From a virus: 43,989 nucleotides of DNA. How positions within the stretch are numbered: the first letter of the stretch is position 1; every line of letters begins with the position of its first letter. Positions 7,310 through 42,332 of this stretch are shown here, in pieces. The DNA is taken from positions 1 to 43,989 of IMG/VR virus record IMGVR_UViG_3300006874_000028, one strand, 5' to 3'. The notes beneath the pieces were generated by a model. It did not search any database. It saw nothing but the letters and a program-made list of their open reading frames with translations, and had not been told where the DNA came from. The position numbers and the translations under genes are program-made.

Positions 7310-9490
7310 TTATCGCAAGCCATAGTTAAGGAATGCCCTCACTTCAGGCACAGGGCTCAACACATTATAGGAATTGGTTGTTGAACAGTTCGATACTCTC
7401 ATCCATTGAGCATTCACTTCTCCAAGATTGGTTTGAAGAAGGCCGTCTTCTACTCGGCGAGCTGCAAAGCACACTACGCTTTGCTGAATAGGACGTGCGC
7501 GAGATGCAACAGCGGCGTCAATCACTACATCGTAATAACCACGGGCGTATGAGTTTTCGCCAAATGGTGGCACTATGGCAACGCCATTCTTTGTCAAGGA
7601 AATGGTTAGCGTAAACTCGCCTTCCACTGTCGCTACGTAGAAGGTTTGATTATTAACAACGAAACGGAAGCCCGCTTCCAGGGTGTGTTTCCTGTCAAGA
7701 GTGATAGTGCCATTGCTGGCAATGCTCACCACTTCATAGTCTTCATTGACAACGGGGAAATCAAACTTGCTGTCATATTCCGTTGTAATCGCCTCGCGCA
7801 CCAAGTCGTAAATAGAAGTGAGCTTTACATTGGTGTGCTTGTTCGGCGGAACGTAAAGGCGAGTGAGTTCCTTGCCACTTACAGTCTTCTTGACAACAAA
7901 ATTACCTTCAAGCGTGCCCATGTCAGTGGCCACATATTGATCCTGCAGCGTCAAGGGAAGCTGTTCGGGGGGTTCTGTCAGTAACAGGAAGGGATCTGCA
8001 TAGACAAAGCCATCAGGACTCACCAGAACGCCCTCTGTCACGGCATCATCAATAATCTGGAAGGGCTCGTTGTTCCCATCAGGGAACAACAGCGTAATGA
8101 TCACCAGATCACCGCCAGGAGCAAGCAGCAGCGACTCGGCTAGACCAAAATCACCGCCGTCGTCATCAGGAAGCGTGCCATTGAAATGACCCACTTCATC
8201 GAAGTCTGCAAACTCCGCATCGCGGAACACGGCAAGCTCAGTGCCGTAGTTCGCGAACATTTCCAGAGTCTTAGGCAAGCCCTGGAGAGTATTCAAAATA
8301 TTGCCGTTCGCAAAATCTTTTGCACGAATGGCAAACAATGGAAAGAAATGTGACGGCGCAGTGCCGCCAATAACGGGACCAATGTCGCGGCCATTGGAAA
8401 GATCGGCTCCATAGATGTCGGCCTTTTCACTCTCGCCGCCATCCACCTGCACACTCAATCCATACTTAAAGATGAACTGGGGCTCAACAAGGTAGCCAGT
8501 GTTGCTCACTTCCAAGGTGAACGGCAGCACAGGCGTGCCAAGGCTCGGCGCATCAAGGCTGTCAGGGATGAGCAGCTCGTGCATCAACACCCAACGGCCC
8601 CGAGGCACCTGCTTCACCGTTGCAGGAAGACCGTCTTGCTCGTCTACGACAAATGCATAGAAGCGGGCAGAGCTGGCGCCATACCAGCCCCACTCCACCA
8701 GATACATACAGTTCTTGGTGAAGTCAATGTTGGCACCGCTATAGCCAGTGCCATCCATCGGATCATGATTAAACTCACTCCGAGGAACGACAACTTCCTT
8801 CAGTAGGCCATCACCAGACGAGCGACGGTAGATGATTCGGAAATCATCTCCCTCACCAGCAGCCCTGATTTGGAAGAAGAAGCCATCTTGGCTGTCACCA
8901 ATGCCCCAGAGCTTCTCACATGCGGGAAGATCAGCAAGGCTCATCTGCACGCACACAGACATGCGCATCACGCGCCCTGTCTGATAACGGAAGCGCTTCC
9001 GCGTGCTCAAGCGAGCACGCTGGAAGCCGCCAGAGGCCTTAGCGAGTTCTACATTGATGCCACGACGGCGAATATCGTGACGGAATGAGCCAATGGGAAG
9101 CGGCGTGTAGTCAACTGCTACACGCTCAAGCTGACTCCATTTGGCACTCTCTTCATCATTCTCACCACTCTCATTCAAGCCCTGAATTTCCGTGACATAC
9201 ACGTCATCACGGAATGCATAATCGTCTGTGTAATTAAACAGACTCAGCGCTTCATCAACCCGTGGATTGCCAAGCACATCCACCTTGATTTCAGAAGGCT
9301 TCTCAAGATATTTATTGATAATTAGCGGAGTGCCTTCCAGTGGAACCACCACTGGCATGCTCTCCGCCATAGGCGCTTGCCCAACTGGAAACTCACCAGC
9401 TTCTTGCAAGACGGTGCCTGCATTGGCACCGCTTGCAACAACAATGCGTTTCTGACCTACTTCATGGGGAAGCTGGTAATACGTTGCCAT
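7310..9490 (-). CDS. Large putative adhesin, paralogue of the next gene (726 aa)
   Basis: No named family recognised. The first ~330 residues share ordered blocks with the 516-residue neighbour: LGNPRV (73-78), RYQTGR (168-173), VVPRS (234-238), WGWYG (267-271), then RGRWVLMHEL and LGTPVLPFTLEV. The remaining ~390 residues are unique, acidic and beta-rich, with an extra C-terminal domain. Cyanophage genomes often carry such big structural proteins near the tail tip. Duplication followed by divergence of the distal part suggests host-recognition proteins; this is inferred. Confidence 0.7.
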   Translation of the reverse strand: MATYYQLPHEVGQKRIVVASGANAGTVLQEAGEFPVGQAPMAESMPVVVPLEGTPLIINKYLEKPSEIKVDVLGNPRVDEALSLFNYTDDYAFRDDVYVTEIQGLNESGENDEESAKWSQLERVAVDYTPLPIGSFRHDIRRRGINVELAKASGGFQRARLSTRKRFRYQTGRVMRMSVCVQMSLADLPACEKLWGIGDSQDGFFFQIRAAGEGDDFRIIYRRSSGDGLLKEVVVPRSEFNHDPMDGTGYSGANIDFTKNCMYLVEWGWYGASSARFYAFVVDEQDGLPATVKQVPRGRWVLMHELLIPDSLDAPSLGTPVLPFTLEVSNTGYLVEPQFIFKYGLSVQVDGGESEKADIYGADLSNGRDIGPVIGGTAPSHFFPLFAIRAKDFANGNILNTLQGLPKTLEMFANYGTELAVFRDAEFADFDEVGHFNGTLPDDDGGDFGLAESLLLAPGGDLVIITLLFPDGNNEPFQIIDDAVTEGVLVSPDGFVYADPFLLLTEPPEQLPLTLQDQYVATDMGTLEGNFVVKKTVSGKELTRLYVPPNKHTNVKLTSIYDLVREAITTEYDSKFDFPVVNEDYEVVSIASNGTITLDRKHTLEAGFRFVVNNQTFYVATVEGEFTLTISLTKNGVAIVPPFGENSYARGYYDVVIDAAVASRARPIQQSVVCFAARRVEDGLLQTNLGEVNAQWMRVSNCSTTNSYNVLSPVPEVRAFLNYGLR

Positions 9491-9518: not shown

Positions 9519-11069
9519 TCAGCGCTCGCCCCAAGTGAGAGAGCCTGCAACAGTGTTGCCACTCACCGCAAGGCTTTCAGCAACCAGCGTGAGCACATCA
9601 CCAGACTGGCCCGAATCATTAGAGATTGGGCGGGTGAGGAACTCGCGGTTGAGACGGAAGATTTCCTGAAGCTCCAGGTTTTGACCGTCTTCGTTGCCAG
9701 TGAAGAACGTGGTGACAATCTCGCCACCAGTGATGCCAGATGCTGTGGTGTTGTACTCAACAGCAGAGAGCTGGGCGTTGGAAGTCCAAGCCACACCAGC
9801 TTCCTGCGGATCAAGAGTTGCACCACTCACTACCAAGCCGCTTGCATTCTTCACCAGCGTAAATTTGGTGGGCGATGTAGACGAAAGGTTGAGCATCAAA
9901 GGCACCACGCGAAGAATGTTCTTCGTTACAGCACCTTCCGCATTGACAATGTTCTCCTTGCAACGAATAGAGAGCAGCGGACGCGGCACACCAGGATTAA
10001 TCTGCACGCTCGATGATGCATGCGAGAAGATGTCATACTTTGTGGCATCGCCACCATCAATCTCAGCCTTGGTGCCGTAGATCTTCAGGAACACGGCCTG
10101 GGCGAGACTGCCAGTCTTGACAATGCGGAATGTCAGTGGCAGATTCGGATTGCCGAGGCTCGGGAACGGCAGGCGATCACAAGTGTTGATCTGGTGAATT
10201 GTCACCCACCGAGCATTCTTAGGCTCAGCACCGCCAGGTAGATTCTCGTCGACAGGCACGAATGCCATCAACTTACAAGCCGAACCGCCATACCAGCCCA
10301 TCTGGATGCGGAACATTGTCACGTTGGACAAGCTCAGCGTGTGAACACTGTTGCCCACACCATCGAGCTTGTCGCCAGTGAAGACACTGCGAGGAACAAT
10401 CTCTTCCATCACGGAAGGATCTTCAGGCAGCAGGCGATAACGATGGTTGAAATAAATAGAAGTGGGATCAGTGACTGTATAGTCAGTAGACCCCGCAGGT
10501 GCTCCGTGGTTCTGCGGAGTTTCACCAGAGTTGGTGCGACGAACGAAGAAAAGATCGTCGCCAATAATGCGAACGATATAGCCGTTCTTCTCGTCGAACA
10601 GGCCAGTTTCATGCGTCGCATTTATATTGCGAAGCATGCTGATGCCAAAGCTCACATCAGTGATGCGACCAGTCTGGTACGGGAATACCAGACGGCTCTG
10701 CATCTGCACCTCTGTAGAGTTAGGTGCGTTGGTATTGATGAGGAGCTGAGCGCCGCTCTCCTGAGGCAGGTGAGTGACAGTAGCGTGCAGGGGATTGCCT
10801 TCACGATCCTCAGTCAGCTTCCAAAGCTTGGGATCAATGGCAATAATGTTGGTGGAATCCCACAGAGCCAAGCTGGTCTGCACACGGGGATTGCCCAGCA
10901 GATCATCATGCACCTCAGAAGGCGCACTCAGATTGTCAAGAATGGGGATGGGAGTTTGGTCGCTAGCCAGCGCAACAGGCAGCGACTGCTCCATGGTCGC
11001 CTGACCCGCCTGGATAGGCTCCGATCTGCCAACTGTTACTACCTGTTGACCTTCTTCAATGTCAGGCAT
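9519..11069 (-). CDS. Putative adhesin, shorter paralogue (516 aa)
   Basis: Shares the block order of the 726-residue neighbour: LGNPRV (58-63), YQTGR (131-135), IVPRS (224-228), MGWYG (257-261), ARWVTIHQI, LGNPNLPLTFRI. It lacks the long C-terminal extension and ends GSLTWGER. The N-terminus (QPIQ-like SEPIQAGQATMEQSLPVALASDQTPIP, key part MEQSLPVALASDQTPI) is a motif frequent in phage virion proteins that bind another structural protein. Likely a virion surface protein expressed in the same operon; receptor unknown. Confidence 0.7.
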   Translation of the reverse strand: MPDIEEGQQVVTVGRSEPIQAGQATMEQSLPVALASDQTPIPILDNLSAPSEVHDDLLGNPRVQTSLALWDSTNIIAIDPKLWKLTEDREGNPLHATVTHLPQESGAQLLINTNAPNSTEVQMQSRLVFPYQTGRITDVSFGISMLRNINATHETGLFDEKNGYIVRIIGDDLFFVRRTNSGETPQNHGAPAGSTDYTVTDPTSIYFNHRYRLLPEDPSVMEEIVPRSVFTGDKLDGVGNSVHTLSLSNVTMFRIQMGWYGGSACKLMAFVPVDENLPGGAEPKNARWVTIHQINTCDRLPFPSLGNPNLPLTFRIVKTGSLAQAVFLKIYGTKAEIDGGDATKYDIFSHASSSVQINPGVPRPLLSIRCKENIVNAEGAVTKNILRVVPLMLNLSSTSPTKFTLVKNASGLVVSGATLDPQEAGVAWTSNAQLSAVEYNTTASGITGGEIVTTFFTGNEDGQNLELQEIFRLNREFLTRPISNDSGQSGDVLTLVAESLAVSGNTVAGSLTWGER

Positions 11070-11075
11070 GATTCC

Positions 11076-11753
11076 TTAAATCGATGTGATGCGGGGCTTA
11101 ACCTGCAGTGTGCCTAATACAATCGTATCTTCTTTCAGCACTCGTAGAGTACCTCCAAAAGAATTAGCGCTAAATACAGGCACGTTATTGACGGGCAATA
11201 TTTCAAAAGTTCGCTCGTCAATGATATCTAGCGTGTTTGCGGTGTAAGTAGCATTGTAGCCAGCCACGCTAGTTCCAGCAATGCGAATAATGTCAGAAGG
11301 GCCAAGATTATGGCGATCAACTGTAGTTACACGCACGCGATATGTGAGCAGCAGGGGATCAATTATTGTCCCTTGCACCATTTGAACAATGCCGCCGCCC
11401 TCTTCCACGTAGTACAGCTCTTTCAAGTCCCACAGATAGAGAGCGCCAATGTCGGCAGGGTCAGCGGCCTGCCTTCCCACGTCATAAGTGATGACGCGCT
11501 CGTCATAACCACTTGCAATATTGCGGCGCAAAGCCTCTGTTTGAGCAGAAGACAGTGCAAGCTTCAAATGGCCAGTAGCGGCAAGCTTTGTAATATTGAA
11601 CGTGTCAATTACATCGCCGCCAAACGTCTCTTTAATCTGTGCAATCACTTCGGAATTGGTGAAATCCCGATAGGTGCCAAGAGGCTTCTGGAAAGCAAGG
11701 TACAGCTCATCAAAGCTGTCACCTTCCCTCACGGTTACGTTAATGCTTTCCAT
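11076..11753 (-). CDS. Baseplate/fibre-type protein (225 aa)
   Basis: Begins MESINVTVREGDSFDELYLAF and DFTNSEVIAQIKETFGG, a layout like the BppU-type adaptor domain also suspected in the gene at 1700-2041. Residues about 145-200 (TTVDRHNLGPSDIIRIAGTSVAGYN ... FEILPVN) form a beta module often seen in fibre proteins (H-x-L/F-x-x-x-D-x-V-x-I). Its ATG overlaps the stop of the coiled-coil gene by one base (TGATG). Structural role inferred from domain style and location. Confidence 0.65.
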   Translation of the reverse strand: MESINVTVREGDSFDELYLAFQKPLGTYRDFTNSEVIAQIKETFGGDVIDTFNITKLAATGHLKLALSSAQTEALRRNIASGYDERVITYDVGRQAADPADIGALYLWDLKELYYVEEGGGIVQMVQGTIIDPLLLTYRVRVTTVDRHNLGPSDIIRIAGTSVAGYNATYTANTLDIIDERTFEILPVNNVPVFSANSFGGTLRVLKEDTIVLGTLQVKPRITSI

Positions 11754-12583
11754 CAGCCACTAATAAGACGGTCGAGGTTTGCAATAGCTTCGTTACGCAA
11801 CGACGTTGTGCTGCGCTTGGGACGCTTCAATTCATCGATGCGAGATAGAAGCTGATGCTTCTCCATCGTCAGTCTATCAATTTGCGAATGGAGACTTGCA
11901 TAATGCGTGGTAAGCGAGAATGCGTCCTCTACTTCCTTTTTTAATGCTTCGTTTTCACGCGCCATTAGCTCCAGGCGCTGGCGATAGTCGCTAATTGTTT
12001 CTTGAATGTCAGCAGGAGTGACAGTCCTCTCTACTACCTTCTCAATAACTACTTCCTGTTGAGAAAGGCGAGCGTCAATGGCGTCACGCTTGGCACTTGT
12101 CAACTCCGACACCATCGAAGCACTCTTGGCCTGCGCTGCTGCGGCCTTGCTCTCAGCGTCCGTCACTTCACGCAAGAGCTTGGCATTCTCCTGCTCAAGC
12201 CGCTGCAGACTTGCCGTCAGCTCGTTAATTTCATTCTTGAGCATCTTGGCCTCAAGCAGCTCGCCTTTCTTGCTCGCTGCTTGCGCACGACCAGGGCGCG
12301 ACTTAACAAGACCACGCACTTCTTCAATGCTCACTTCAGGAGCAGCGGGCACGCGCCAACGCTCCACATACTTCAAGCGGCTAATGTCACCCGTATCCTT
12401 CCAGTCGACAAAGTAGGGCATACCAGGAGGGCATGGAGGTAGCTCCACATCGACAATGCCATCCTCCACCTTGAAGGACAAATCCTTAGCAGGGGCGCCA
12501 ATGAAGGCGCCCCCTGCCTTCACGTAGAGTCGTCCGCTAAGAGGCCCGCTGGCCCCTTCTAGAAAGCCAACAATGCGTGTCAT
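11753..12583 (-). CDS. Coiled-coil protein downstream of the tail tip genes (276 aa)
   Basis: The N-terminal ~100 residues form a small beta-rich domain (SGPLSGRLYVKAGGAFIG; PPCPPGMPYFVDW). After it comes a long heptad-rich coiled coil (about residues 105-260, e.g. LKNEINELTASLQRLEQENA) and a basic end with KRPKRSTTSLRNEAI. No membrane segment. Possibly a stalk or trimeric fibre shaft connecting the tip to adhesins. Not recognised as a known family. An 8-bp GGGGCGCC hairpin lies within its coding sequence at 12,492-12,513. Confidence 0.6.
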   Translation of the reverse strand: MTRIVGFLEGASGPLSGRLYVKAGGAFIGAPAKDLSFKVEDGIVDVELPPCPPGMPYFVDWKDTGDISRLKYVERWRVPAAPEVSIEEVRGLVKSRPGRAQAASKKGELLEAKMLKNEINELTASLQRLEQENAKLLREVTDAESKAAAAQAKSASMVSELTSAKRDAIDARLSQQEVVIEKVVERTVTPADIQETISDYRQRLELMARENEALKKEVEDAFSLTTHYASLHSQIDRLTMEKHQLLSRIDELKRPKRSTTSLRNEAIANLDRLISG

Positions 12584-15372: not shown

Positions 15373-16014
15373 CTACGCTGAGATGTTTTCAGTGCTGATT
15401 GAAGAGGAAATAACCAATGGCGAAACGGCCAAATATCGCCCATACAGCAGCGGAATGGGGTAGCCCTGGGTGGTAAGCTCCACGGCCCGATCAAACATAA
15501 AGCTGTCTTTCTTCTTTGAATCAGTGCCAGGTGTTTGAATTGGTGGCGTGAGGAGGCCAGCGATCCCAGTTAAAAGCAGGCTTGCGCCAAGCCCAAACAG
15601 TACGGTGCCAACACTGGAGAGGCTTCCGACAGTTGCACCTGCTGCGGCAAGTCCACCCCCTGCGGCAACCGTGCCAATGCCTGGAATGAATGCCAAACCA
15701 ATCAGTGCTGCGCCCAATAAAATCTGGCCGATCGACATCCCCTTCCCCCCAGATCCAGCAATAACAGGAGCAATGATAAGCTGTTTGCAGCTCATCATCA
15801 CGCCGTCATAATTCATTCCTTCTGGATCTTCGTCAACAAGCTTGAAGCCCATTCCATTTTCATGGGCGCCACAAAGATAGTCCTTAAACCCATCGAGCTG
15901 GTTAGACAACGCAGAAATAACATCTCGTGGATTGCGCACCATGAACTTATACGACCTCCCGAAACGGCGTCCCAACTCCCCAAGAAGCTTCACTTCTACC
16001 ATCCGCCGCTTCAT
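15373..16014 (-). CDS. Tail tip assembly protein, lambda I-like (213 aa)
   Basis: The N-terminal ~85 residues (MVEVKLLGELGRRFGRSY; NPRDVISALSNQLDGFKDYL) match the ubiquitin-like domain of the lambda tail assembly protein I family. Residues about 95-165 form two hydrophobic, Gly/Ala-rich stretches (LLGAALIGLAFIPGIG; GLGASLLLTGIAGLL) usual in this family. The C-terminus (ELTTQGYPIPLLYGR) is the conserved end. Start ATG overlaps the K-like stop (ATGA). It is needed for tip assembly together with K, L and J. Confidence 0.9.
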   Translation of the reverse strand: MKRRMVEVKLLGELGRRFGRSYKFMVRNPRDVISALSNQLDGFKDYLCGAHENGMGFKLVDEDPEGMNYDGVMMSCKQLIIAPVIAGSGGKGMSIGQILLGAALIGLAFIPGIGTVAAGGGLAAAGATVGSLSSVGTVLFGLGASLLLTGIAGLLTPPIQTPGTDSKKKDSFMFDRAVELTTQGYPIPLLYGRYLAVSPLVISSSISTENISA

Positions 16015-16718
16015 GCTCTTGCGCCCTCATGCCTCAGCGTCTTAGTTGTTACTTTAGCCCAATAACCTCCATAAACACTTTTCTCTGACAACCTGTCCAT
16101 TAAGTGGTGATAAAAAGAATTGTCTTGCCCTGTCATTACTCCCACATGATTCGGAGATGGGGCGCCAACTTGCATTAACAAAATATCTCCTTTCTGCTCC
16201 GGGCTTTCTATCTCGTAAAACCCTTGCCGAGAATAATTATCAACGAACATAGTCCAACCCTTGTTTTCCCATTCCATTTCATCTCCCCGCTTAAAATCGT
16301 CAAGCTCAATACCAAGCTCCCTCTTGTAAAAATCTCTCACAATGGCATAGCAATCATGAATGCCATAAGTCCATTGGCGCCCCTCATAAGGGGCGCCTCC
16401 AGTGGGGTCAGCGTAGAAAAAATCTCCCGATGGTGCATGGAAAACAATCCACGGCACATTGCTTTGTTTGCATGCCGCTATATCGGGCCGTGAAAAGCCC
16501 CTTGTGCCACCAACGTGCGAATGATACACCGCCTCCACTTCTCCCATCGCAGAAGCTTTTATGTAGTCTTCGGCAGTAATCGTGAAATAATCGGAAGGCG
16601 ATGGGGATGAATTGTGACAAGAAACAATCGCCCCATTGACAATCAATCCGCAACATTCATTAGGAGAAGCCTTGCGGGCTTCTCCTGCAATAGCCTGTTT
16701 AATTGAAAGTGGAATCAT
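16011..16718 (-). CDS. Bifunctional tail tip peptidase, lambda K-like: JAMM + NlpC/P60 (235 aa)
   Basis: The N-terminal domain has a complete JAMM metalloprotease signature: Glu21, then His66-Ser-His68 and Asp79 with the standard ten-residue spacing. The C-terminal domain is NlpC/P60 cell-wall peptidase: Cys123 in YGIHDCYAIVRDF, His in SPNHVGVM near residue 187. This matches lambda K in architecture and place. Probable roles are tip assembly and local peptidoglycan opening. It overlaps L and I genes by 4 bases each. A perfect 9-bp GC palindrome lies inside (16,376-16,397). Confidence 0.92.
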   Translation of the reverse strand: MIPLSIKQAIAGEARKASPNECCGLIVNGAIVSCHNSSPSPSDYFTITAEDYIKASAMGEVEAVYHSHVGGTRGFSRPDIAACKQSNVPWIVFHAPSGDFFYADPTGGAPYEGRQWTYGIHDCYAIVRDFYKRELGIELDDFKRGDEMEWENKGWTMFVDNYSRQGFYEIESPEQKGDILLMQVGAPSPNHVGVMTGQDNSFYHHLMDRLSEKSVYGGYWAKVTTKTLRHEGARA

Positions 16719-18070
16719 CTTACCAAGTTGGCGCCAGGAAATCCACCAAATGGTAAGTTGCCATTAGTGAATCTCAAGCGGCAACTTTGCAACCGTTTTC
16801 CGCAGCGGTCACGCTTCAAAATATCATCCCCAGGAGGCAATGCCGCGTAGGCGGCATTAAGAGCCGCCTGCGCAGCATTGAATTCATCAAGAGCATCGTT
16901 ATACAGGCTTAATGCAGCATCATATTCTGCCGTCTTACTGGCACATTGCGCTGCACCATATTCCACGGAAGCCAGGCTTCTCATGGGAGCGAAGCCTGGA
17001 CTTGCATAGTCGCCAAGACTATAAGAAACAAACCCGCTACTTACTACCACCTGGCCGCTAACAATAAATATTGGCTGCTGATCTTCATCCTTCATTGCGA
17101 AAGTTGAATCGTTAAATGGAAGAGTAATGCCATTACGCTCAACAGCGTAGACCTCCCCTGTTCCATTTTTCTCTTCGCCTGGCCCTCGTCCTGTGTTTTG
17201 CTTGTAACCAGGGCTGTAATTGGGGTTGAATCCCGAAATGCTTACATTGTTGCCATCCCACACAGCAATCGCTGCATCTTCGGTCTGAATGAAAAAAGTT
17301 ATATCAACATCACCGCCCCTCTTGAAGACAAAATTGGCTCCATACGTTTCTGGAGATGACGCATCACATGCAGTTTCTTTTTGAGCAAACAGCTTATTCT
17401 TGATGGCTTCCGCGGTGGCAAGTTTTGCTTTCGCCGCAGTAAATGCATTAAATGCGTCAATATACGCACTGCCTTCTGGAGAGGACGCCCCGCCAGTGAC
17501 TATTGACTGGTCGAATTGGTCAGCAACGGCCACGCCGTTGTAACCGCACTCTGAGCCGCGAAACTTCCACAAACAATAATTTTGCGTAATAATTCTTCGC
17601 GGTAATTGCAGTCCCTCTAGGTCAATTTTGCTGGCAAGTTGCCATGTAATGGTAATGCTACTTTCTGCAATTTTACGCTCCACATAAAATATGTCATCTG
17701 GAAATTCTTGTGATGGATCTGGCGAGGCCCCACCATCTAAGTACTTCAACAAGGTGCGGCGCCTTGTTACTTTTGCGCCCACTAAGTCATCTAACGTATT
17801 GACCACTGAAGCCAACGTCCCCAAGACATTGGCCACCGTCAACTCGGGAGTAGGGATTTGCCCTTTTGTAGTACGCTCAAATCCAGTTGCTGCAATGGGG
17901 AGCGGCTCGTAAGTAATTCCCTTCCACGAAATTTTTGTATTATCAGGCATGAGATTGGCCGTGAAATAATACTTATCTCCTGCGCTTCTAGTGATGGTTG
18001 ACAGATCCAGTTCAAATAGCTCGATGATGGCATCATGCCACGTCTGCGATACATCAGATTGAATGGTCAT
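16715..18070 (-). CDS. Tail tip protein, lambda L-like, with a large insertion (451 aa)
   Basis: The N-terminal ~180 residues follow lambda L (FELDLSTITRSAGDKYYFTAN; RRTLLKYLDGG; PRRIITQNYCLWKFRGSECGYNG). Four cysteines expected to bind a [4Fe-4S] cluster are present as two pairs, Cys166/Cys175 and Cys423/Cys430. Spacings within pairs (9 and 7) equal those I recall for lambda. Between the pairs sits a ~225-residue insertion: two Ala-rich helices (about 201-230 and 372-410) flanking a beta-rich domain. Stop overlaps the K start. Assembles at the tail tip under J. Confidence 0.88.
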   Translation of the reverse strand: MTIQSDVSQTWHDAIIELFELDLSTITRSAGDKYYFTANLMPDNTKISWKGITYEPLPIAATGFERTTKGQIPTPELTVANVLGTLASVVNTLDDLVGAKVTRRRTLLKYLDGGASPDPSQEFPDDIFYVERKIAESSITITWQLASKIDLEGLQLPRRIITQNYCLWKFRGSECGYNGVAVADQFDQSIVTGGASSPEGSAYIDAFNAFTAAKAKLATAEAIKNKLFAQKETACDASSPETYGANFVFKRGGDVDITFFIQTEDAAIAVWDGNNVSISGFNPNYSPGYKQNTGRGPGEEKNGTGEVYAVERNGITLPFNDSTFAMKDEDQQPIFIVSGQVVVSSGFVSYSLGDYASPGFAPMRSLASVEYGAAQCASKTAEYDAALSLYNDALDEFNAAQAALNAAYAALPPGDDILKRDRCGKRLQSCRLRFTNGNLPFGGFPGANLVR

Positions 18071-18072
18071 AA

Positions 18073-18426
18073 TTAATCCCTGGAATCGTACACGCGCTTA
18101 CACGAAAAAGAAATAATGTTCACATCTGGACCTGAACATTCCCAAGACCATTCATTTGGATCAAGGCGATATTTGTACACTGCATCATCTTGCTTGAATT
18201 GTGAATAAAAGAAATCACCTGACAATGCAGACAAATCATCGTCTAACGCCTCTGCTTGCGCATCAGTGATTGGGGTGGTCCTAATGTCATACTTCCTGAT
18301 GTCAGTATTGGCACCATCCGGTACAACTTGCTCGTAGCCATCGCCAAATTGCACGCGCCTAACGCGCGTGCCTCTGCGAACAGTGAGCCCATATTCAACT
18401 TCAAGCGTGAAAGTTGGTTGTGCCAT
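18073..18426 (-). CDS. Tail tip protein, lambda M-like (117 aa)
   Basis: FTLEVEYGLTVRRGTRVRRVQFGDGYEQVVPDG (core RVRRVQFGDGYEQ) and ALSGDFFYSQFKQDDAVYKY are the defining segments of the phage minor tail protein M family. Length (117 aa) is close to lambda M (109). M binds at the distal end of the tape-measure complex and hands over to L. It lies between tape measure and L exactly as in lambda. The minus-strand start is 5 bases after the tape-measure stop. Confidence 0.92.
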   Translation of the reverse strand: MAQPTFTLEVEYGLTVRRGTRVRRVQFGDGYEQVVPDGANTDIRKYDIRTTPITDAQAEALDDDLSALSGDFFYSQFKQDDAVYKYRLDPNEWSWECSGPDVNIISFSCKRVYDSRD

Positions 18427-18431
18427 AGTGA

Positions 18432-21400
18432 TCAGCGTCCGCTATAGATGAGGCCGCCTGGACGGCTTTCTTTCATGATGACATTGCGCACAGCGCCTTC
18501 AATTTCGCGACCGAGCGTTTGACCGCCGCTTCCGCTCATCTGGCTGCTCGCTTGGCCATTGTTCATATTGACAACAATGTTAGTGGAGATATTGTTACCA
18601 GCGCCTCCGCCAAGCTCTACGGGAATCTTCTTGCCGTCGGGCAGTGGTACGACTGCTTCATTGAAGCGGCCCTCGCCAACAAGACCAAGAGTGGGGCCTT
18701 TCACTACTCCGCCGTTAGCAAACGGAGTGAAACCACCTTCCCATACAGCGCCGTTTGCAGCAGTTAAGGCTACAGACCCTGGGAGAGGCGGTTTGGCGCC
18801 ACCACTATTTCCGCCAGGCGAGAACAATCCAATGATCTGCAACGCAGCCCACTTGGCCAGCATTTGAGTAACCATGTCAGCAAACATGCTCGCCACGCTC
18901 TTAAATGCACCGGCAAGGCCTTCTCTCCACGTTTGAGCGCCAGTAAGAATATCAGTGAAAGACTTGGCAAATGCACTGCCAATGCCATTTGCTGCTTCGC
19001 CAAGAAACTTTGTGCTGTCAGTGAGGTCGTCAAGCTCGTCTTTTGTGTTCTTGTAAAGCTCACCAATGCTGCCGGGCTCAGGCGTGGCCGCCTGCCTAGC
19101 CTCAAATGCAGCAACGTCATCAGGCGTGACACCAGGGATCTTCTTGAATTGATCAAGGGCGTCAATCTGCCCCTGAATGAACAACAGGCGATCTCTTTCC
19201 TGGGCTGTGATCTGGCCCGCCGCAAAACGGGCTTCAACCATCAGGCGATTGACTTCACGGCGTCCTTCTTTCTCGCGTTCAATCTGCTCATACATCTCCT
19301 TGCCGATTTTTTCGCCAAGATCCTGCAGCGCCATTTGCTGTTTGTGACGCGCCTCTTCAAGCGCAATCATGCGACCAACGGCATCTTTCTGCTCCTGATT
19401 CGCATTGACCACATCAATCTGATATTGCAGTTGAATTTCATCAATGAGGCGCCCCTCTTCTTTCGCCTTGTTTAATTGACGAGTGAGATCAAGCAATGTG
19501 GCAGGAGTTGTCTTCCCACCCTTTCCACCGCCATCGCCTTCGCCTCCTCCACCAAGTCCAGTGAAATCCATTTGGGCTTGCTGTTTAGCTCGCGCATCAA
19601 CAACAGCAGCGTTCTTTGCTGCTTCTTGCGTCAGCTCGTCCATCCCTTCAGTGAAGGCGGCGAGTGACTTCTTGTTGTTTTCCAGCACTTCGCCAACATC
19701 ACCCGCAATATCCTCCTTAAAGGCCCCTCCCCCTGCGTATGAAATACTCTTTGCAGTAAAACCTCCCTTCGTCTGCATCAGGCCACTAGGCAAGCTGCCG
19801 GTGGCTTTCAGTTGAGCACGTTCCTTCTCTGAAATCGTCTCACCTTGCTGCAGTCGCTCAAGAATGCCAATGCTCTTCTCTCTGCTTGAGATCTCGGCGC
19901 CAACACGAGCTTGCTCGGCCTTCATCCCTTCGGTTCCTGCCATCTCTGCAGCCTTCTTGATCCTGGTGCCAGCTCCCCCTCTCTGACCTTCAATGCTCTC
20001 GGCGGTAGCCTTGAGCTGCATGATCTTTTCAATCAATGCACTGATAGCCACCAAAGCAATACCAATCGCAGAAGCAACCAGCGCAGTGCGAATTGCCGTC
20101 GCAAGCACTCTCACGCCCACCGCAGCTTGACGCATGCCCACGCCAGTTGCGACAGATGCATTCCTCAGTGCAGTAAGGCCGCTAGAGCCAGCGGCAGTTT
20201 GCGTGAGGAAGATTCGGAAAACCCCGTTGTAACGAATGATGTTACGAATGAGAGGAATGATGCCAGTTGCATTTACTGCGGCAGCGGCAACCCTGAATCC
20301 CCCAAGGAGAACAATGGCTCTTGTAAGTACACTGACAAACTGCTGATTGCCAAGGATGAGCTGCGCCAGGGGGCGCAGCACAACCGCCAATGCTTGTGCG
20401 AACTGACCGACTGTTTGCGCTGCAGTGACCAAACCATCCTTGATGTTGATCAACTGCGGGAACAGTTCATCCCGGAAATATGCGGCGAGATCATTGTTCT
20501 CTATTTCATCACCAGACAACGCAAGTTTCACTGCATCACCCACTTCAGTGAGCGCCTGCACCATGGGCGTAACGAATTCACCAAGGAACGCGCCTGCTGC
20601 CGGCGAGAAACTCTCGTAGAAGCCAGTCAACGCATTGTTAAGCTTGTTCATCTGGTTCTGGAACGAACCAGCAGCCTTGTCTGCACTACCTTCAAACTTC
20701 TTAAGTGCAATGCCCACATTGGACAGCACTTGCTTCATCTTCTCGCCCTTGAAGGCACCATCCTCCAAGGCTTGAAGGAATTGCGACATGCCCTGACTCT
20801 TCGCGGCATCGTCCATCGTGTCGTTCATAAAGCCAGTGGCTTCAGCGAACAGACTCACGGCCTGAGGGAACACATCACCTAGCTGTCCCTTCAGTTCTTC
20901 GGTCATAATCTGACCTTTACTGGCCATCTGAGCCAGTGCGTAAGTCATCCGATCAACTTGGTCGGCACTCATGCCGAATGTCGATGCGGTGGCTGACAGG
21001 CCAGTGAACAGATTGTTAATCGTTCCAAGGTCAATGCCAGCAGGCTTCATCGACGCATAAAGCCGAACGAAGCCATCTCGTGCAGACTGCACCGGCACGT
21101 TAAAGCGTGCCACGGTGCTTTCAATCAGCTCCAAGCTGTCGGCCATCACTTGGCCGCCGCCAGTAACTGCCTCTAGCTGGTTGCGGAACGACTGCAGACT
21201 TGCCGTGGCATTCGCAATGTTGCCAGGCAATGAAGTGATGGCAGCAAGTGCCTTGTAAGCCGTGCCAAACAGCAACACTTGCTTAGTTGCATTGCCAAAC
21301 TCGTTAGCAATTTCCCCGGCGATACCACCACCGCGACCAACAAAACCACGGCCGAGGTCGCGACCAAAATTCGGCCCGATACCACCAAAGCCACCACTGC

Positions 21401-22631
21401 GACCACCACCGCCGCCGCCTCCACCAGGGGGCAAGTAGCGACCTCCGCCACCAAGAGGCACCTGTCCCGACGCCACTTCCAGTCCTCGACGCCGAGAAGC
21501 ACGCGCTGCATCCTCTGCAAACACAGCAGCAGAACGTGCCGCAGATCTTGCGCGAGCCTCCAGTTCCTTAAGCGCCAATGCAGCGGCCCTAGTGGCCTCT
21601 GCAGTGCCGCTAGGACCAAGAAGGCCGGCAATGCGTGGCGGTGAAGGAGTGCTGTCGAAGACGCCACGAACGGGCAGTTGAGGCCCTTGAATGGCCTGTC
21701 TGCCAAGGTTGTAAGTGCCAGAGCCGCCACCAGCAAACGTGGCACTGGGCACTGCTCCGTAACGGCCCGCAATACCCTCTCGCGCCTGGCGGAACATGCG
21801 CTGGCCTTGGGTTTCAGGCGTATAAAGTCCGCCCATGCCAGCAGCCATGAGAAGGGCTTCACGCAGCCCTTTCTGCTGGCCACCGCCCATACCGCTGGCC
21901 ATCATCAAGGCCGGGCCGAACTTCGATGCCTCTCCTTTTAGAGCCGCAAGCATCGCCCGCATGCGGTTCATTGCGGAAGCTTCAGCTTCCTTTAGACCCT
22001 GAGTTAGTCCAATCTCAAAGCCTTCAGCGGCAAACTCACCTAAATATTTGAATTCTCTCGATGGAGAAGCAATGCCAAGCACTGCCTTGAAGCTGTTAAT
22101 CAGCGAGCTGCCAAGGCTTCGCGCTGCTGCCTTCAGCTTCGGATCACCTGATTTAAGGCCGTTGAGCAAGCCACTAATTGTGTCCGCACTCAGGCCGCCA
22201 ATCTCCGCGACCATCTCGTCGCGATTTTTCTTAACTCCTCGCTGGAAACCCTCTACGCCAGCAATTGCAAGAGCTTCGTAAAGCTTTGCAATTTGAGCCT
22301 TGTTAACCCCGCCCTTCGACGCAGTTTTGCTTAAACCCTGCACGCCAATTGGCGCAACAGGCGCAGCTCCACGAGATGCTGTCTGAAGCCGCTTAAGGGC
22401 TTGCTCTAATTTCTGAGTGCTATCTAACGCGCTCTTGATCGCCGTATCATTCAGATTGATACGGAATTCCCTGCGGCCAGTAAGCTTATTTAGCTCCTTG
22501 CGTAATTGACGCGCATCAAACTTTACCTGCAGAGGTAGGCGATACCCTGCAGCGGCTTGGCTGAGTTTTGGAAGTTGCTGCCTGAAATATGCGAGGTCAA
22601 GAGCAACATTAAGCCTTAGCTCAGCGGCCAT
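18432..22631 (-). CDS. Tape measure protein (1399 aa)
   Basis: The largest gene here. The N-terminal ~300 residues are helical; a Gly/Arg-rich low-complexity linker lies at about 390-440. The canonical tape-measure domain follows at about 455-600 (ASLQSFRNQLEAVTGGG; ARFNVPVQSARDGFVRLYAS; MASKGQIMTEELKGQLGDVF). Hydrophobic segments at about 730-900 and a charged coiled region follow, then a C-terminal Gly-rich end. It sets tail length and is ejected into the cell. Using the usual ~0.15 nm per residue, a tail around 200 nm is expected (rule of thumb). Confidence 0.95.
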   Translation of the reverse strand: MAAELRLNVALDLAYFRQQLPKLSQAAAGYRLPLQVKFDARQLRKELNKLTGRREFRINLNDTAIKSALDSTQKLEQALKRLQTASRGAAPVAPIGVQGLSKTASKGGVNKAQIAKLYEALAIAGVEGFQRGVKKNRDEMVAEIGGLSADTISGLLNGLKSGDPKLKAAARSLGSSLINSFKAVLGIASPSREFKYLGEFAAEGFEIGLTQGLKEAEASAMNRMRAMLAALKGEASKFGPALMMASGMGGGQQKGLREALLMAAGMGGLYTPETQGQRMFRQAREGIAGRYGAVPSATFAGGGSGTYNLGRQAIQGPQLPVRGVFDSTPSPPRIAGLLGPSGTAEATRAAALALKELEARARSAARSAAVFAEDAARASRRRGLEVASGQVPLGGGGRYLPPGGGGGGGGRSGGFGGIGPNFGRDLGRGFVGRGGGIAGEIANEFGNATKQVLLFGTAYKALAAITSLPGNIANATASLQSFRNQLEAVTGGGQVMADSLELIESTVARFNVPVQSARDGFVRLYASMKPAGIDLGTINNLFTGLSATASTFGMSADQVDRMTYALAQMASKGQIMTEELKGQLGDVFPQAVSLFAEATGFMNDTMDDAAKSQGMSQFLQALEDGAFKGEKMKQVLSNVGIALKKFEGSADKAAGSFQNQMNKLNNALTGFYESFSPAAGAFLGEFVTPMVQALTEVGDAVKLALSGDEIENNDLAAYFRDELFPQLINIKDGLVTAAQTVGQFAQALAVVLRPLAQLILGNQQFVSVLTRAIVLLGGFRVAAAAVNATGIIPLIRNIIRYNGVFRIFLTQTAAGSSGLTALRNASVATGVGMRQAAVGVRVLATAIRTALVASAIGIALVAISALIEKIMQLKATAESIEGQRGGAGTRIKKAAEMAGTEGMKAEQARVGAEISSREKSIGILERLQQGETISEKERAQLKATGSLPSGLMQTKGGFTAKSISYAGGGAFKEDIAGDVGEVLENNKKSLAAFTEGMDELTQEAAKNAAVVDARAKQQAQMDFTGLGGGGEGDGGGKGGKTTPATLLDLTRQLNKAKEEGRLIDEIQLQYQIDVVNANQEQKDAVGRMIALEEARHKQQMALQDLGEKIGKEMYEQIEREKEGRREVNRLMVEARFAAGQITAQERDRLLFIQGQIDALDQFKKIPGVTPDDVAAFEARQAATPEPGSIGELYKNTKDELDDLTDSTKFLGEAANGIGSAFAKSFTDILTGAQTWREGLAGAFKSVASMFADMVTQMLAKWAALQIIGLFSPGGNSGGAKPPLPGSVALTAANGAVWEGGFTPFANGGVVKGPTLGLVGEGRFNEAVVPLPDGKKIPVELGGGAGNNISTNIVVNMNNGQASSQMSGSGGQTLGREIEGAVRNVIMKESRPGGLIYSGR

Positions 22632-31111: not shown

Positions 31112-31804
31112 CTATTTACCGAATGGAGAAGTGAATTGTTCCTTGCCAGGGAGGCCTCCCCATTTCGTTTGGTAGTAGGCCTTATTGCGTTCAAAACAGC
31201 ACCAATGCATTCGCTTGTAACGATCATCACCGCTATGCAATGTGCTGCTGTTGTCATGCTTCCATGAAGGAAGATTCACTTTGATCGCGGGATTATCTTC
31301 CACCAGCAGACGCCAACGACAATCATTGTCTTCAAAGTAAGCAGGTGCAAATAGCTCATCAAAGCCTCCCATTCCCAGCCAGCGCTCAGGGCGATTCACG
31401 TAGAACGTGGAAAACCCACCAACGGGATGATTAGTCTCCAGCAAAATGCTGCCAGGATTGGCATCAGCGGCCTCTAAAAAGGCCGCGATGTCATTCAATC
31501 CGAACACCACATCATCATTCGCAATAATGCATTGATTGAGCTGATTGATGAGATAATTCCACGACTTTGCCACACCAAGGTTATACGGTGGCACTGCAAT
31601 CTTCCATTTGGAAAGATCGCATTTTTCCGCAAGCGCATCAACAGCACCGCTCTCCTTCATTCGCCCACCATTGTCAAGAATCAACACCTCTGCCTCTATA
31701 CAAGGGTGCTCATCATTGAGAAGATGATTACACAGACGGATGAGCTTGTCATAACAAGAAAGCGTGGGAATCCCCACGCTCACGCGACGCTTAGTCATTG
31801 CCAA
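31112..31804 (-). CDS. Glycosyltransferase family 2-like (230 aa)
   Basis: GT-A fold signals: RVSVGIPTLSCYDKLIRL at the N-terminus, AEVLILDNGG, YNLGVAKSWNYLINQ, the metal-binding pair in IIANDDVVF, and the acceptor-side FDELFAPAYFEDNDCRWRL. Transfers a sugar from a nucleotide donor; acceptor unknown. Its start overlaps the GT4 gene end by 14 bases. Membership in the portal-MuF operon suggests that virion proteins, or less likely host surface sugars, are the target. Confidence 0.88.
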   Translation of the reverse strand: MAMTKRRVSVGIPTLSCYDKLIRLCNHLLNDEHPCIEAEVLILDNGGRMKESGAVDALAEKCDLSKWKIAVPPYNLGVAKSWNYLINQLNQCIIANDDVVFGLNDIAAFLEAADANPGSILLETNHPVGGFSTFYVNRPERWLGMGGFDELFAPAYFEDNDCRWRLLVEDNPAIKVNLPSWKHDNSSTLHSGDDRYKRMHWCCFERNKAYYQTKWGGLPGKEQFTSPFGK

Positions 31805-32987
31805 AGCCCTTGCCAGATGTGGGCTTCTTCAGGACATTGTTAACAATTTTGACCACGCTCGCACCAATCGTGCTCCACGAATACTTCTCATCCTGAAGTT
31901 CGTCGTAGCACCATTGCGCCACCTTGTCAAGATTGTCGCGATTCTCGTAGTAATTATTAAGGATGGCCACGAGATCATTCACAGAAGGAATGCCACGGTC
32001 CAAGCCATAGTTACAGTCCACTTCCCAGCTTTCGATGGGAATGCGCGGGATGCCGCCGAAGATCTCCTTCAACGATGTGTGGTCGGGAACAATCTGAGCA
32101 GTGCGCGTGGCGGCATGCTCAAAATTCACCAGGCCCCAGCCCTCGCCAATGCAAGTGTTAACGCCAACATCGCAAGCGTTATACACAAGATTGAGCTTGT
32201 CAACTGGCAGGCAATTCATCACATCAAAGTCCTTGCTTGTGAGAATCAACTTGCCCGCAGGGTCGTAACCATAGTCACGAGAAATACGCTTAAACAGAGG
32301 AATCAAATCCCATCCCTGATCCTTCGACCCCATATTGAGCCATAAGCGAGCATCAGGTTTGTCCAGCGCAAATGCAATGAACGCTTTGATAGTCAAATCA
32401 ATGCGCTTGCGTGGCTGATTGCGATTGCCATTAAAGACGATAAATAGATCCTCGGGCACGCTCATCGCTTTGCGTGCTTCATTCTTTTTAACGGGGAAGA
32501 ATGTAGAGCGATCAATACCATGCGGAATAACATCGCACGGCATTTCACAGCCCGCCTTGCGCACTTCTTCCAATCCGAACTGCGTGTAGGTGGCCATGCC
32601 ATCCCACTCCTTGCAATCCTCAAACACTTCCGGGAAGAAGCCGTAGCTGTCAGTGGGGAAGTAGCCATACCACTTGAAGCCAATCGCCTCTTTAAGGGGC
32701 TTAGCCACCTTCCACAGCTTATTCAAAATCCAAATATCATTCACCGCAAACACCAGATCGGGCTTCTCCTTAATCAGAAGCTCCTGCATCCGATGGGAGC
32801 CGAACGGATCGGCTCCTCCTGCATTAGCTGGATACATCCGATAGGGCAATTCATGCGGGTCGCCCCACCAGTTGACGGCGAGCACCACCACTTCATGCTC
32901 TTTCGCAAGCTCAGGCAGCAAATTCTCTGCCACCCGTCCGAATCCAGTTTGAACTGCAGCGTCTCCGCAGTAAAGAATCTTGGCCAT
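31791..32987 (-). CDS. Glycosyltransferase family 4-like (398 aa)
   Basis: GT-B architecture: N-terminal AAVQTGFGRVAENLLPELA and DLVFAVNDIWILNKL, linker GCEMPCDVIPHGIDRSTFFP. The C-terminal donor domain has FNGNRNQPRKRIDLTIKAF, LNLVYNACDVGVNTCIGEGWGL and the E-x7-E pair in GEGWGLVNFEHAA. Full length for the family. Expressed with GT2 and methyltransferase between MuF and small head genes. Likely builds a short glycan on a virion component; substrate cannot be read from sequence. Confidence 0.9.
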   Translation of the reverse strand: MAKILYCGDAAVQTGFGRVAENLLPELAKEHEVVVLAVNWWGDPHELPYRMYPANAGGADPFGSHRMQELLIKEKPDLVFAVNDIWILNKLWKVAKPLKEAIGFKWYGYFPTDSYGFFPEVFEDCKEWDGMATYTQFGLEEVRKAGCEMPCDVIPHGIDRSTFFPVKKNEARKAMSVPEDLFIVFNGNRNQPRKRIDLTIKAFIAFALDKPDARLWLNMGSKDQGWDLIPLFKRISRDYGYDPAGKLILTSKDFDVMNCLPVDKLNLVYNACDVGVNTCIGEGWGLVNFEHAATRTAQIVPDHTSLKEIFGGIPRIPIESWEVDCNYGLDRGIPSVNDLVAILNNYYENRDNLDKVAQWCYDELQDEKYSWSTIGASVVKIVNNVLKKPTSGKGFGND

Positions 32988-38161: not shown

Positions 38162-38327
38162 CGAGGGGACGCCTGAGTGGTTTTATAGGGGGTGGTTCAG
38201 GCACCCCCGAATTGCAAGGGGAGGGTGGAAGCTCCCTTTGCTGTTGCCTTACCAGGACAACGATGAAGCTGCGGGAGGGCCGCCGCACGGCCATTATTGG
38301 ACTATTGCGTCCTACTCCCGCCCCTCG
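38162..38327 (+). ncRNA. Candidate compact multi-junction structured RNA next to tRNA-Thr
   Basis: A 166-base stretch with no reading frame folds by eye into a closed multi-arm structure. P1 CGAGGGG/CCCCTCG (162-168/321-327 of 38 kb) closes it. P2 GGGGGTG/CACCCCC is at 188-194/202-208. P3 is 10 bp with one G-U at 214-223/232-241. P4 is 7 bp with a bulge at 243-261. P5 GCGGGAG/CTCCCGC at 271-277/315-321 encloses two hairpins. The P2 loop TCAGG can pair with upstream CCTGA (172-176), a pseudoknot. P5 and P1 share one base. The 3' end coincides with the tRNA 5' end. Strand inferred from the tRNA. Confidence 0.6.
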
Positions 38328-38398
38328 CCCTTGTAGCTCAGTGGTAGAGCAATGCTTTTGTAAAGCATTAGCCGCGGGTTCAATTCCTGCCAGGGGCT
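38327..38398 (+). tRNA. tRNA-Thr (anticodon UGU)
   Basis: Complete cloverleaf. Acceptor GCCCTTG pairs with CAGGGGC (one G-U). The D-arm is GCTC/GAGC, the anticodon stem ATGCT/AGCAT has loop TTTGTAA, and the T-arm GCGGG/CCTGC has loop TTCAATT. Discriminator T; CCA is not encoded. It likely supplements decoding of ACA/ACG codons in Thr-rich virion proteins. It lies 16 bases upstream of the riboswitch, so processing would free that leader. Confidence 0.96.
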
Positions 38399-40869: not shown

Positions 40870-42285
40870 TCACTCTGCGCAAGCTGCACAGAATCCGGCC
40901 TCTAAATCACAAGACGCAGAACTCTGATTGGCCGCCGACTCATCGTCGAGACCAAACATGCTCTTAAAGTCGTCATCTAATGCCGCGTAGGCATCATCTT
41001 TACGCTGCGTGTCTGGAAGAACTTGCAGCGAATAGTAGAGGCTCGTCTGAGGTGATGCTAGCCAATCCTTGAGGAAGGCTTCGTCATAAACGACAACATC
41101 GCTCCAAGAATTGAAGCTATATCCATGGAAAAGATTGCCGCTATTTTGGTACATGCGTACCAGCTCATCAGCCACACGTTTGTAATCTTCCCAGCCCACA
41201 TCTGCTGCCGTCTCAACATCGCCATAGTCAAAGCTTTCCACACCAAATGTGCCGCTATCGCGGTCCACGTGACGAGCAATAGGAGGAGCAATCTCAGGCG
41301 TTGTAGTAAATCCACGCAAATCCTGGTAGCGATAGGAGCACGATGCTGTGGGAGCAATGCAAAATGCCCTGTCCATGTTGTATTCACGGGCAATGGCCGC
41401 GGCCTCCATGATTGCCTGCTTCAAAACGATGGCAGCAGTGCGAGCATTGGTAATAGGCCCAGGCTTTCCATCGTTCACATCTTTCAGCGCCAGGCCGAAG
41501 TCCTTATAGGAAATACCCTCCTGCGCCAGGAAGTTAGCCAGGCCCAGCATGCCAAGCCCCACTTGACGATCTACAACGGCAGGCAGATACTCTCCAGTGT
41601 CGCCAACGCCCGTCACGGCATGCAGCTCACAAAGCTGCAGCATGCCCTCCTTGAAAGCCCCTACGAGGTCTTCGATGGCGCAGGCGCCCATGTTGACGTG
41701 CTGCAACAGACAAGTGCCACGATGCGGAAGATAAACCTCCAGACAGACGTTCGCACGAATGCGCTCACCACGCTGGTCATAACGAATTTTGTTCAGCCAG
41801 ATGTCGCCTGAAGCAATTCCCTTCAGCAATGCATCAATCAATTCAGGAGAACTCTTCTCCATAAAATCTTTATCAACATTCACGCAACGCTTCACCCAAG
41901 GCAGCTCACTTCGCGATGCTTTGATGAAATCAAGCGCATCAGGGTGCGAATAATCAATATGCAGAACAATTGCACCGTTCTTGTATCGCCCGCCCCGTCG
42001 CAGAATTTCATTCAATGTGGAATAGATTTTGCCGAAGCTCACCGGACCACTGGCCACCAGGCCCTTGCCATTTTCAGCGCCCTTAGGCCGCAAATCAGAT
42101 AAATGGACGGCAACGCCAGCGCCATTGCGCAGACCATGACTCACAAAGCGCCAGGAAGCCTCAATGCCATCCTCGCCTTCCATTGAATCAAGCACGTTGA
42201 ACACTGTGCAGCTCACGGGGAGGCGCCCGTCAGCATCATCCATCCAACTTTGCACCCGTCCAGTGCGGGCAATCTTCTCCGCCAT
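40870..42285 (-). CDS. nrdA: Ribonucleotide reductase alpha, compact class I type (471 aa)
   Basis: Start set at ATG 42,285 (MAEKIARTGRV), 5 bases after AAGGA; longer forms would start in a terminator. Active-site residues: Cys26 (LPVSCTVFNV), Asn179-Cys181-Glu183 (ANVCLEV), Cys192 (GTCLLQHVNMGA). The radical-transfer Tyr pair is in SLYYSLQV, and C-terminal redox cysteines are in GFCAAC. The ATP-cone is absent. The Tyr pair points to class I with a partner beta rather than class II. Makes dNDPs for phage DNA synthesis. Confidence 0.88.
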   Translation of the reverse strand: MAEKIARTGRVQSWMDDADGRLPVSCTVFNVLDSMEGEDGIEASWRFVSHGLRNGAGVAVHLSDLRPKGAENGKGLVASGPVSFGKIYSTLNEILRRGGRYKNGAIVLHIDYSHPDALDFIKASRSELPWVKRCVNVDKDFMEKSSPELIDALLKGIASGDIWLNKIRYDQRGERIRANVCLEVYLPHRGTCLLQHVNMGACAIEDLVGAFKEGMLQLCELHAVTGVGDTGEYLPAVVDRQVGLGMLGLANFLAQEGISYKDFGLALKDVNDGKPGPITNARTAAIVLKQAIMEAAAIAREYNMDRAFCIAPTASCSYRYQDLRGFTTTPEIAPPIARHVDRDSGTFGVESFDYGDVETAADVGWEDYKRVADELVRMYQNSGNLFHGYSFNSWSDVVVYDEAFLKDWLASPQTSLYYSLQVLPDTQRKDDAYAALDDDFKSMFGLDDESAANQSSASCDLEAGFCAACAE

Positions 42286-42306
42286 TGTCATCCTTGATTG
42301 AGACGA

Positions 42307-42332
42307 AAGAGCCGCCCTCAAAGGCGGCTCTT
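42307..42332 (-). terminator. Terminator between the 62-aa gene and RNR alpha
   Basis: AAGAGCCGCC (42,307-42,316) pairs with GGCGGCTCTT (42,323-42,332). The loop on the minus strand is TTTGAG, followed by TCG and TCTC. It ends the short unit carrying the 62-residue gene; the U-tract is short. Confidence 0.78.

Follow-up and report, generated by a model that had tools for sequence, protein, structure and literature searches.

A predicted stalk and beta head in the Fe-S loop of a lambda L-type tail-tip protein, a candidate lateral adhesin of an S-CBS4-like siphophage

In the lambda tail-tip protein gpL, an Fe-S cluster is held by Cys173, Cys182, Cys205 and Cys212, at spacings of 9, 23 and 7 residues, in a domain on the outer surface of the tip, and the role of the cluster is still described as uncharacterised (PMC10721106). 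In the window, which is the whole stretch of DNA analysed (a virus record of 43,989 bases), a 451-aa ORF on the minus strand (16715-18070) encodes cysteines at positions 166, 175, 235, 376, 423 and 430. The locus raises the question of what lies between the two cysteine pairs that correspond to those of lambda, and what it would do at the tail tip.

An L-type hub protein with an insert between its cysteine pairs

The ORF matches Pfam PF05100 (E 2.5e-53, 180.9 bits against a cut-off of 25), PHROG 18 (E 2.4e-98) and NCBIfam TIGR01600 (214.8 bits, curated cut-off 70.75). By Pfam and PHROGs, its neighbours are a tape measure gene upstream and an M-like gene, then K-, I- and J-like genes on the other side, which is the lambda order tape measure-M-L-K-I-J. 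Together, these scores and neighbours place the assignment beyond chance, and the product is, on this evidence, a tail-tip (hub) protein of the lambda L type, in the family phage minor tail protein L, as an earlier note made from the DNA alone had proposed. The J is short, and fibre-like genes lie downstream. Coordinates are collected in Table 1.

Table 1. Tail-tip genes of the window and features of the L-type protein, in positions of the window.
Feature	Position	Strand	Basis
Tape measure protein	18432..22631	-	PF20155, E 1.2e-18
Lambda M-type distal tail protein	18073..18426	-	PF05939, E 1.2e-13
Lambda L-type tail-tip hub protein with insert, 451 aa	16715..18070	-	PF05100, PHROG 18, TIGR01600
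N-terminal hub domain (HDI-like), residues 1-152	17615..18070	-	VIA-align to 8iyk_L and other hub chains over 2-152; pLDDT 75-95 over most
First putative metal-binding Cys pair, C166 + C175	17546..17575	-	Alignment to lambda C173/C182 and insert-less homologues; invariant in A7
Predicted stalk helix 1, residues 198-234	17369..17479	-	AF2 helix; Ala heptad stripe
Proximal clamp cysteine, C235	17366..17368	-	57-62 residues after C2 in all clamp members
Predicted head beta unit 1, about residues 236-316, 5 strands	17123..17365	-	AF2; hhalign to unit 2 (91%) and short heads (84%)
Predicted head beta unit 2, about residues 317-375, 5 strands	16946..17122	-	AF2; hhalign to unit 1, E 1.1e-6
Distal clamp cysteine, C376	16943..16945	-	Exactly 47 residues before C423 in 38/38 clamp members
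Predicted stalk helix 2, residues 373-409	16844..16954	-	AF2; Ala and Tyr/Leu heptad stripes
Second putative metal-binding Cys pair, C423 + C430	16781..16804	-	Alignment to lambda C205/C212; invariant in A7
Lambda K-like JAB + NlpC/P60 protein	16011..16718	-	Pfam
Lambda I-like tail assembly protein	15373..16014	-	phrog_32, E 8.7e-45
Short lambda J-like hub protein, 659 aa	13391..15370	-	phrog_31, PF24801, PF13550

C166/C175 and C423/C430 align with lambda C173/C182 and C205/C212 and keep the pair spacings of 9 and 7, whereas the gap between the pairs is 248 residues against 23 in lambda, giving an extra length of 225 residues. The earlier note had these spacings and the gap exactly right, as counted here and set against the published lambda values (PMC10721106). 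Aligned with ordinary L proteins, the protein has its insert in the short loop between the cysteine pairs, and both flanks resume in register; with the predicted structure, this bears out the claim that a domain of about 225 residues sits inside the cysteine set. The note had also named beforehand, as an outcome that would count against its reading, insert-less homologues lacking the cysteines. The opposite was found: insert-less relatives keep all four with a gap of 23, and in five of them (L162, L164, L240, L242 and L243) the core is 62-68% identical to that of the window. All four metal-site cysteines are invariant in alignment A7, while the loop between the pairs changes freely. A 4Fe-4S cluster can be inferred to form in the window's L protein.

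The insert is conserved in S-CBS4-like relatives and its head is under purifying selection (dN/dS 0.04-0.23 in close pairs), and it is thus, to judge from these comparisons, real coding sequence. Among isolates, Synechococcus phage S-CBS4 comes closest: its gp036 matches at 64% identity along the full length and carries the same six cysteines, with a head 13 residues longer; it is annotated merely as 'phage tail protein'. At the DNA level, identity to S-CBS4 is 85% over part of the tail region. A tail protein of Synechococcus phage S-CAM8 (BFVD G8EY09) aligns with the L core over 179 columns at 38% identity.

Several other features of the window were recorded. Two adjacent ORFs (7310-9490 and 9519-11069, minus strand) both match the virion-protein family phrog_1645 and are paralogue-like, and the fibre region includes a coiled-coil protein of 276 aa with no clear family (11753-12583, minus strand). 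A glycosyltransferase (phrog_2170; 31791-32987, minus strand) lies within the structural gene block, and a tRNA-Thr (tgt) is found at 38327-38398 on the plus strand. A 483-aa ORF (40870-42321, minus strand) matches the ribonucleotide reductase large subunit mainly at residues 30-157, with poor or no score over the rest, and may therefore be divergent or interrupted.

A predicted stalk, a cysteine clamp and a two-unit head

The AF2 model, built from a 60-row alignment, has a pLDDT of 86.4 but a pTM of only 0.51, and consists of the L core, two 37-residue helices (198-234 and 373-409) and an all-beta head whose strands, between 241 and 370, are at pLDDT about 87-97. Its weak parts are residues 152-165 (below pLDDT 50) and the C-terminus. 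A shallower run on 13 close relatives reached a pLDDT of 50.6 and was set aside. The best solved match to the model by VIA-align is lambda L (8iyk_L; Z 18.7, rmsd 8.8, 207 residues), which the hub domain fold resembles. Model residues 1-440 align to residues 6-219 of the 8iyk_L chain, on both sides of the insert, so that in the model the segment after the insert would fall at the second cysteine pair of lambda. The stalk also matched seryl-tRNA synthetase and flagellins (Z 5-9, VIA-align), which was treated as a common helical arrangement.

Cys235 and Cys376, which the earlier note had overlooked, are likewise invariant. In the AF2 model they lie at the end of helix 1 and the start of helix 2, respectively, which is the far end of the stalk, and a disulfide between them probably closes that end. 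In 38/38 proteins the distal clamp cysteine stands exactly 47 residues ahead of the third metal-site cysteine (C3), and the proximal one follows the second (C2) by 57-62, though the heads span 62-186 residues. Counting from the distal clamp cysteine in 28 non-redundant members, helix 2 has alanine at offsets 10, 17, 24 and 31 (0.89-1.0) and large hydrophobic residues at offsets 7, 14, 21, 28 and 35 (0.86-1.0); helix 1 has a matching but weaker alanine stripe in the same 28 members. In one protein, L168, the stalk register is unchanged and both clamp cysteines are absent, a single case that fits the joint loss of a bonded pair. The earlier suggestion of an antiparallel Ala-rich helical stalk carrying a beta head is thus supported by AF2, VIA-align and the heptad pattern, the helices and head being predicted.

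The two halves of the head match each other by hhalign (91%, E 1.1e-6). For unit 1 there is also a match to the short heads (84%), while control comparisons stay below 2%. From these profiles, long heads are therefore best read as having arisen by duplication of a unit some 65 residues long. The heads of the window's group and of three other long-head groups match at 87-97% by profile comparison, with the short heads forming a second group. The head diverges faster than the core (mean identities of 56% and 86% in the S-CBS4 group). A search with the head alone against phage records matched only S-CBS4. The insert has no Pfam family, and a PDB sequence search with it gave chance matches only; no fold was identified for the head in the VIA-align list with the whole model as query. 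The head unit was found in no gene other than L among the loci examined, nor elsewhere on the contigs of two insert-less relatives, which may be fragments.

A recurrent insertion site in L proteins

The survey drew on phage records and on viral and genome contigs, and yielded 191 complete and distinct L proteins. The gap between the cysteine pairs is 22-24 residues in 121/191 and 103-323 in 48, one of these 48 being cut at a contig end. The scan of genome contigs gave 14 L loci, from proteobacteria where named, with no insert of the window's type (0/14). In the core tree, made by a quick method, explaining which proteins have an insert takes a minimum of nine changes, and well-supported branches force five of these; the insert-less L162 and L240 nest within the stalk-bearing clade. 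The site also holds inserts of other kinds: GNA-type mannose-lectin-like repeats occur in the same cysteine loop of L213 (2930-4558), L226 (3956-5596) and L228, from another phage lineage, the L213 insert matching a GNA-type lectin (4oit, E 1.2e-12). The insert of L201 has repeats weakly like E1_FCCH, below the cut-off. A third, shorter type at the same site (L219, L223 and L227) has no Pfam match; its pattern (GD....., YY, N..PP....YW) may resemble CBM5/12. As the loop is only 9 residues long in L220 and L231, it can also be almost removed. By this distribution among the surveyed sequences, the Fe-S loop of L is an insertion hot spot. Since close insert-less relatives exist, tails can be built without the insert, which may be of benefit only under some conditions.

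Lambda gpL (8iyk) and T1 gp36 share with the window's protein the hub domain fold, the cysteine-rich C-terminal metal domain and a lambda-like tip, but have no stalk or head. In the evolved Dit proteins of siphophages, too, a structural protein of the tail tip has taken in a carbohydrate-binding module, although the carrier there is Dit rather than L and there is no Fe-S loop. The RcGTA hub g13 has an oligosaccharide-binding domain (168-249) between the two halves of its ion-binding domain (PMC7296036), and the roseophage R4C hub has the same arrangement (PMC10276861); both bind Fe-S despite their inserts (PMC7296036, PMC10276861). As in the window, a domain separates the halves of the Fe-S domain, and oligosaccharide binding is proposed there. 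However, that insert is of about 82 residues and described as a single domain, a long helical stalk or clamp is unmentioned, and the sequences are distant; by VIA-align these hubs match the whole model only over residues 1-154. The upper baseplate protein gp50 of JBD30 also has a four-cysteine site, modelled as a putative metal only (Cys147/156/238/245, spacings 9/82/7; PMC11445458), with a shorter insert than the window's. All three hubs keep a four-cysteine metal site around smaller inserts in the same loop; insertion there is thus, by this comparison, not new in principle, and the C-terminal region of gpL was called hypervariable in a 2026 paper (PMC13243795). Neither a clamped, fixed-length stalk nor such wider use of the Fe-S loop site was found described in the open-access papers searched, and the clamped stalk of constant length thus appears undescribed so far.

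A candidate lateral adhesin and its alternatives

The preferred reading, to which a probability of about 0.7 is given, is that the protein is a gpL-type hub of an S-CBS4-like siphophage whose Fe-S-loop stalk bears the two-unit head as a lateral adhesin. By homology to lambda, three copies of L would sit in the tip with their four-cysteine Fe-S domains facing outward. The loop between the cysteine pairs would have opened into an antiparallel alanine-coil stalk of about 5 nm (37 residues x 1.5 A), probably shut at its far end by the C235-C376 disulfide and bearing there two tandem five-stranded beta units. The three heads would point out to the side and bind some structure on the host surface, for which a glycan is the most likely candidate; a tip with a short J would thereby gain a lateral adhesin. 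The head is thought to contact the cell surface in this way by analogy, because sugar-binding or lectin-like domains occupy the same loop elsewhere and J is short here; as the head has no Pfam or solved-structure match by sequence, glycan binding in particular rests on analogy. A long J compensating for a missing insert was considered, and no such trade-off was seen (J ORFs of 660-740 aa in close insert-less relatives, 650-852 aa with the insert).

The main rival is that the insert is a structural strut or fibre-attachment arm, packing on tip proteins or side fibres and binding no host receptor. A stalk of constant length would suit a measured contact inside the particle, and the short J with fibre-like genes downstream also agrees with it, but head length and sequence are what vary most, and there are insert-less relatives in which K, I and the short J are the same; this rival is considered unlikely. 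It is more improbable still that the four cysteines have ceased to hold a cluster, with disulfides or another metal holding the domain and the spacing a relic. The extra cysteines and the merely putative metal of JBD30 speak for such a loss, while the invariance of the four cysteines around a freely changing loop, and the Fe-S bound by the insert-bearing RcGTA and R4C hubs, speak against it. Fused genes or a mis-assembled contig, which the unusual length for an L protein might suggest, have a negligible chance of being the explanation: the same architecture recurs in S-CBS4, which is an isolate, and in numerous metagenome contigs independent of one another, copies by which an artefact is already refuted, and the head is under purifying selection.

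Beyond the adhesin reading, a more tentative extension, to which somewhat less than an even chance is given, is that the Fe-S loop serves gpL as a general socket for display. The disulfide-clamped stalk would permit heads to be swapped, duplicated or lost while the hub stayed undisturbed; the metal site would be a rigid hinge anchoring three lateral adhesins and possibly relaying to the hub the signal that binding has occurred. Some close relatives have the stalked insert and others lack it, and heads vary on a constant stalk; this natural set makes a role of the Fe-S cluster as an adhesin anchor testable. If the adhesin role is true, the insert would be an element by which cyanophage tails contact receptors, hitherto annotated only as a minor tail protein.
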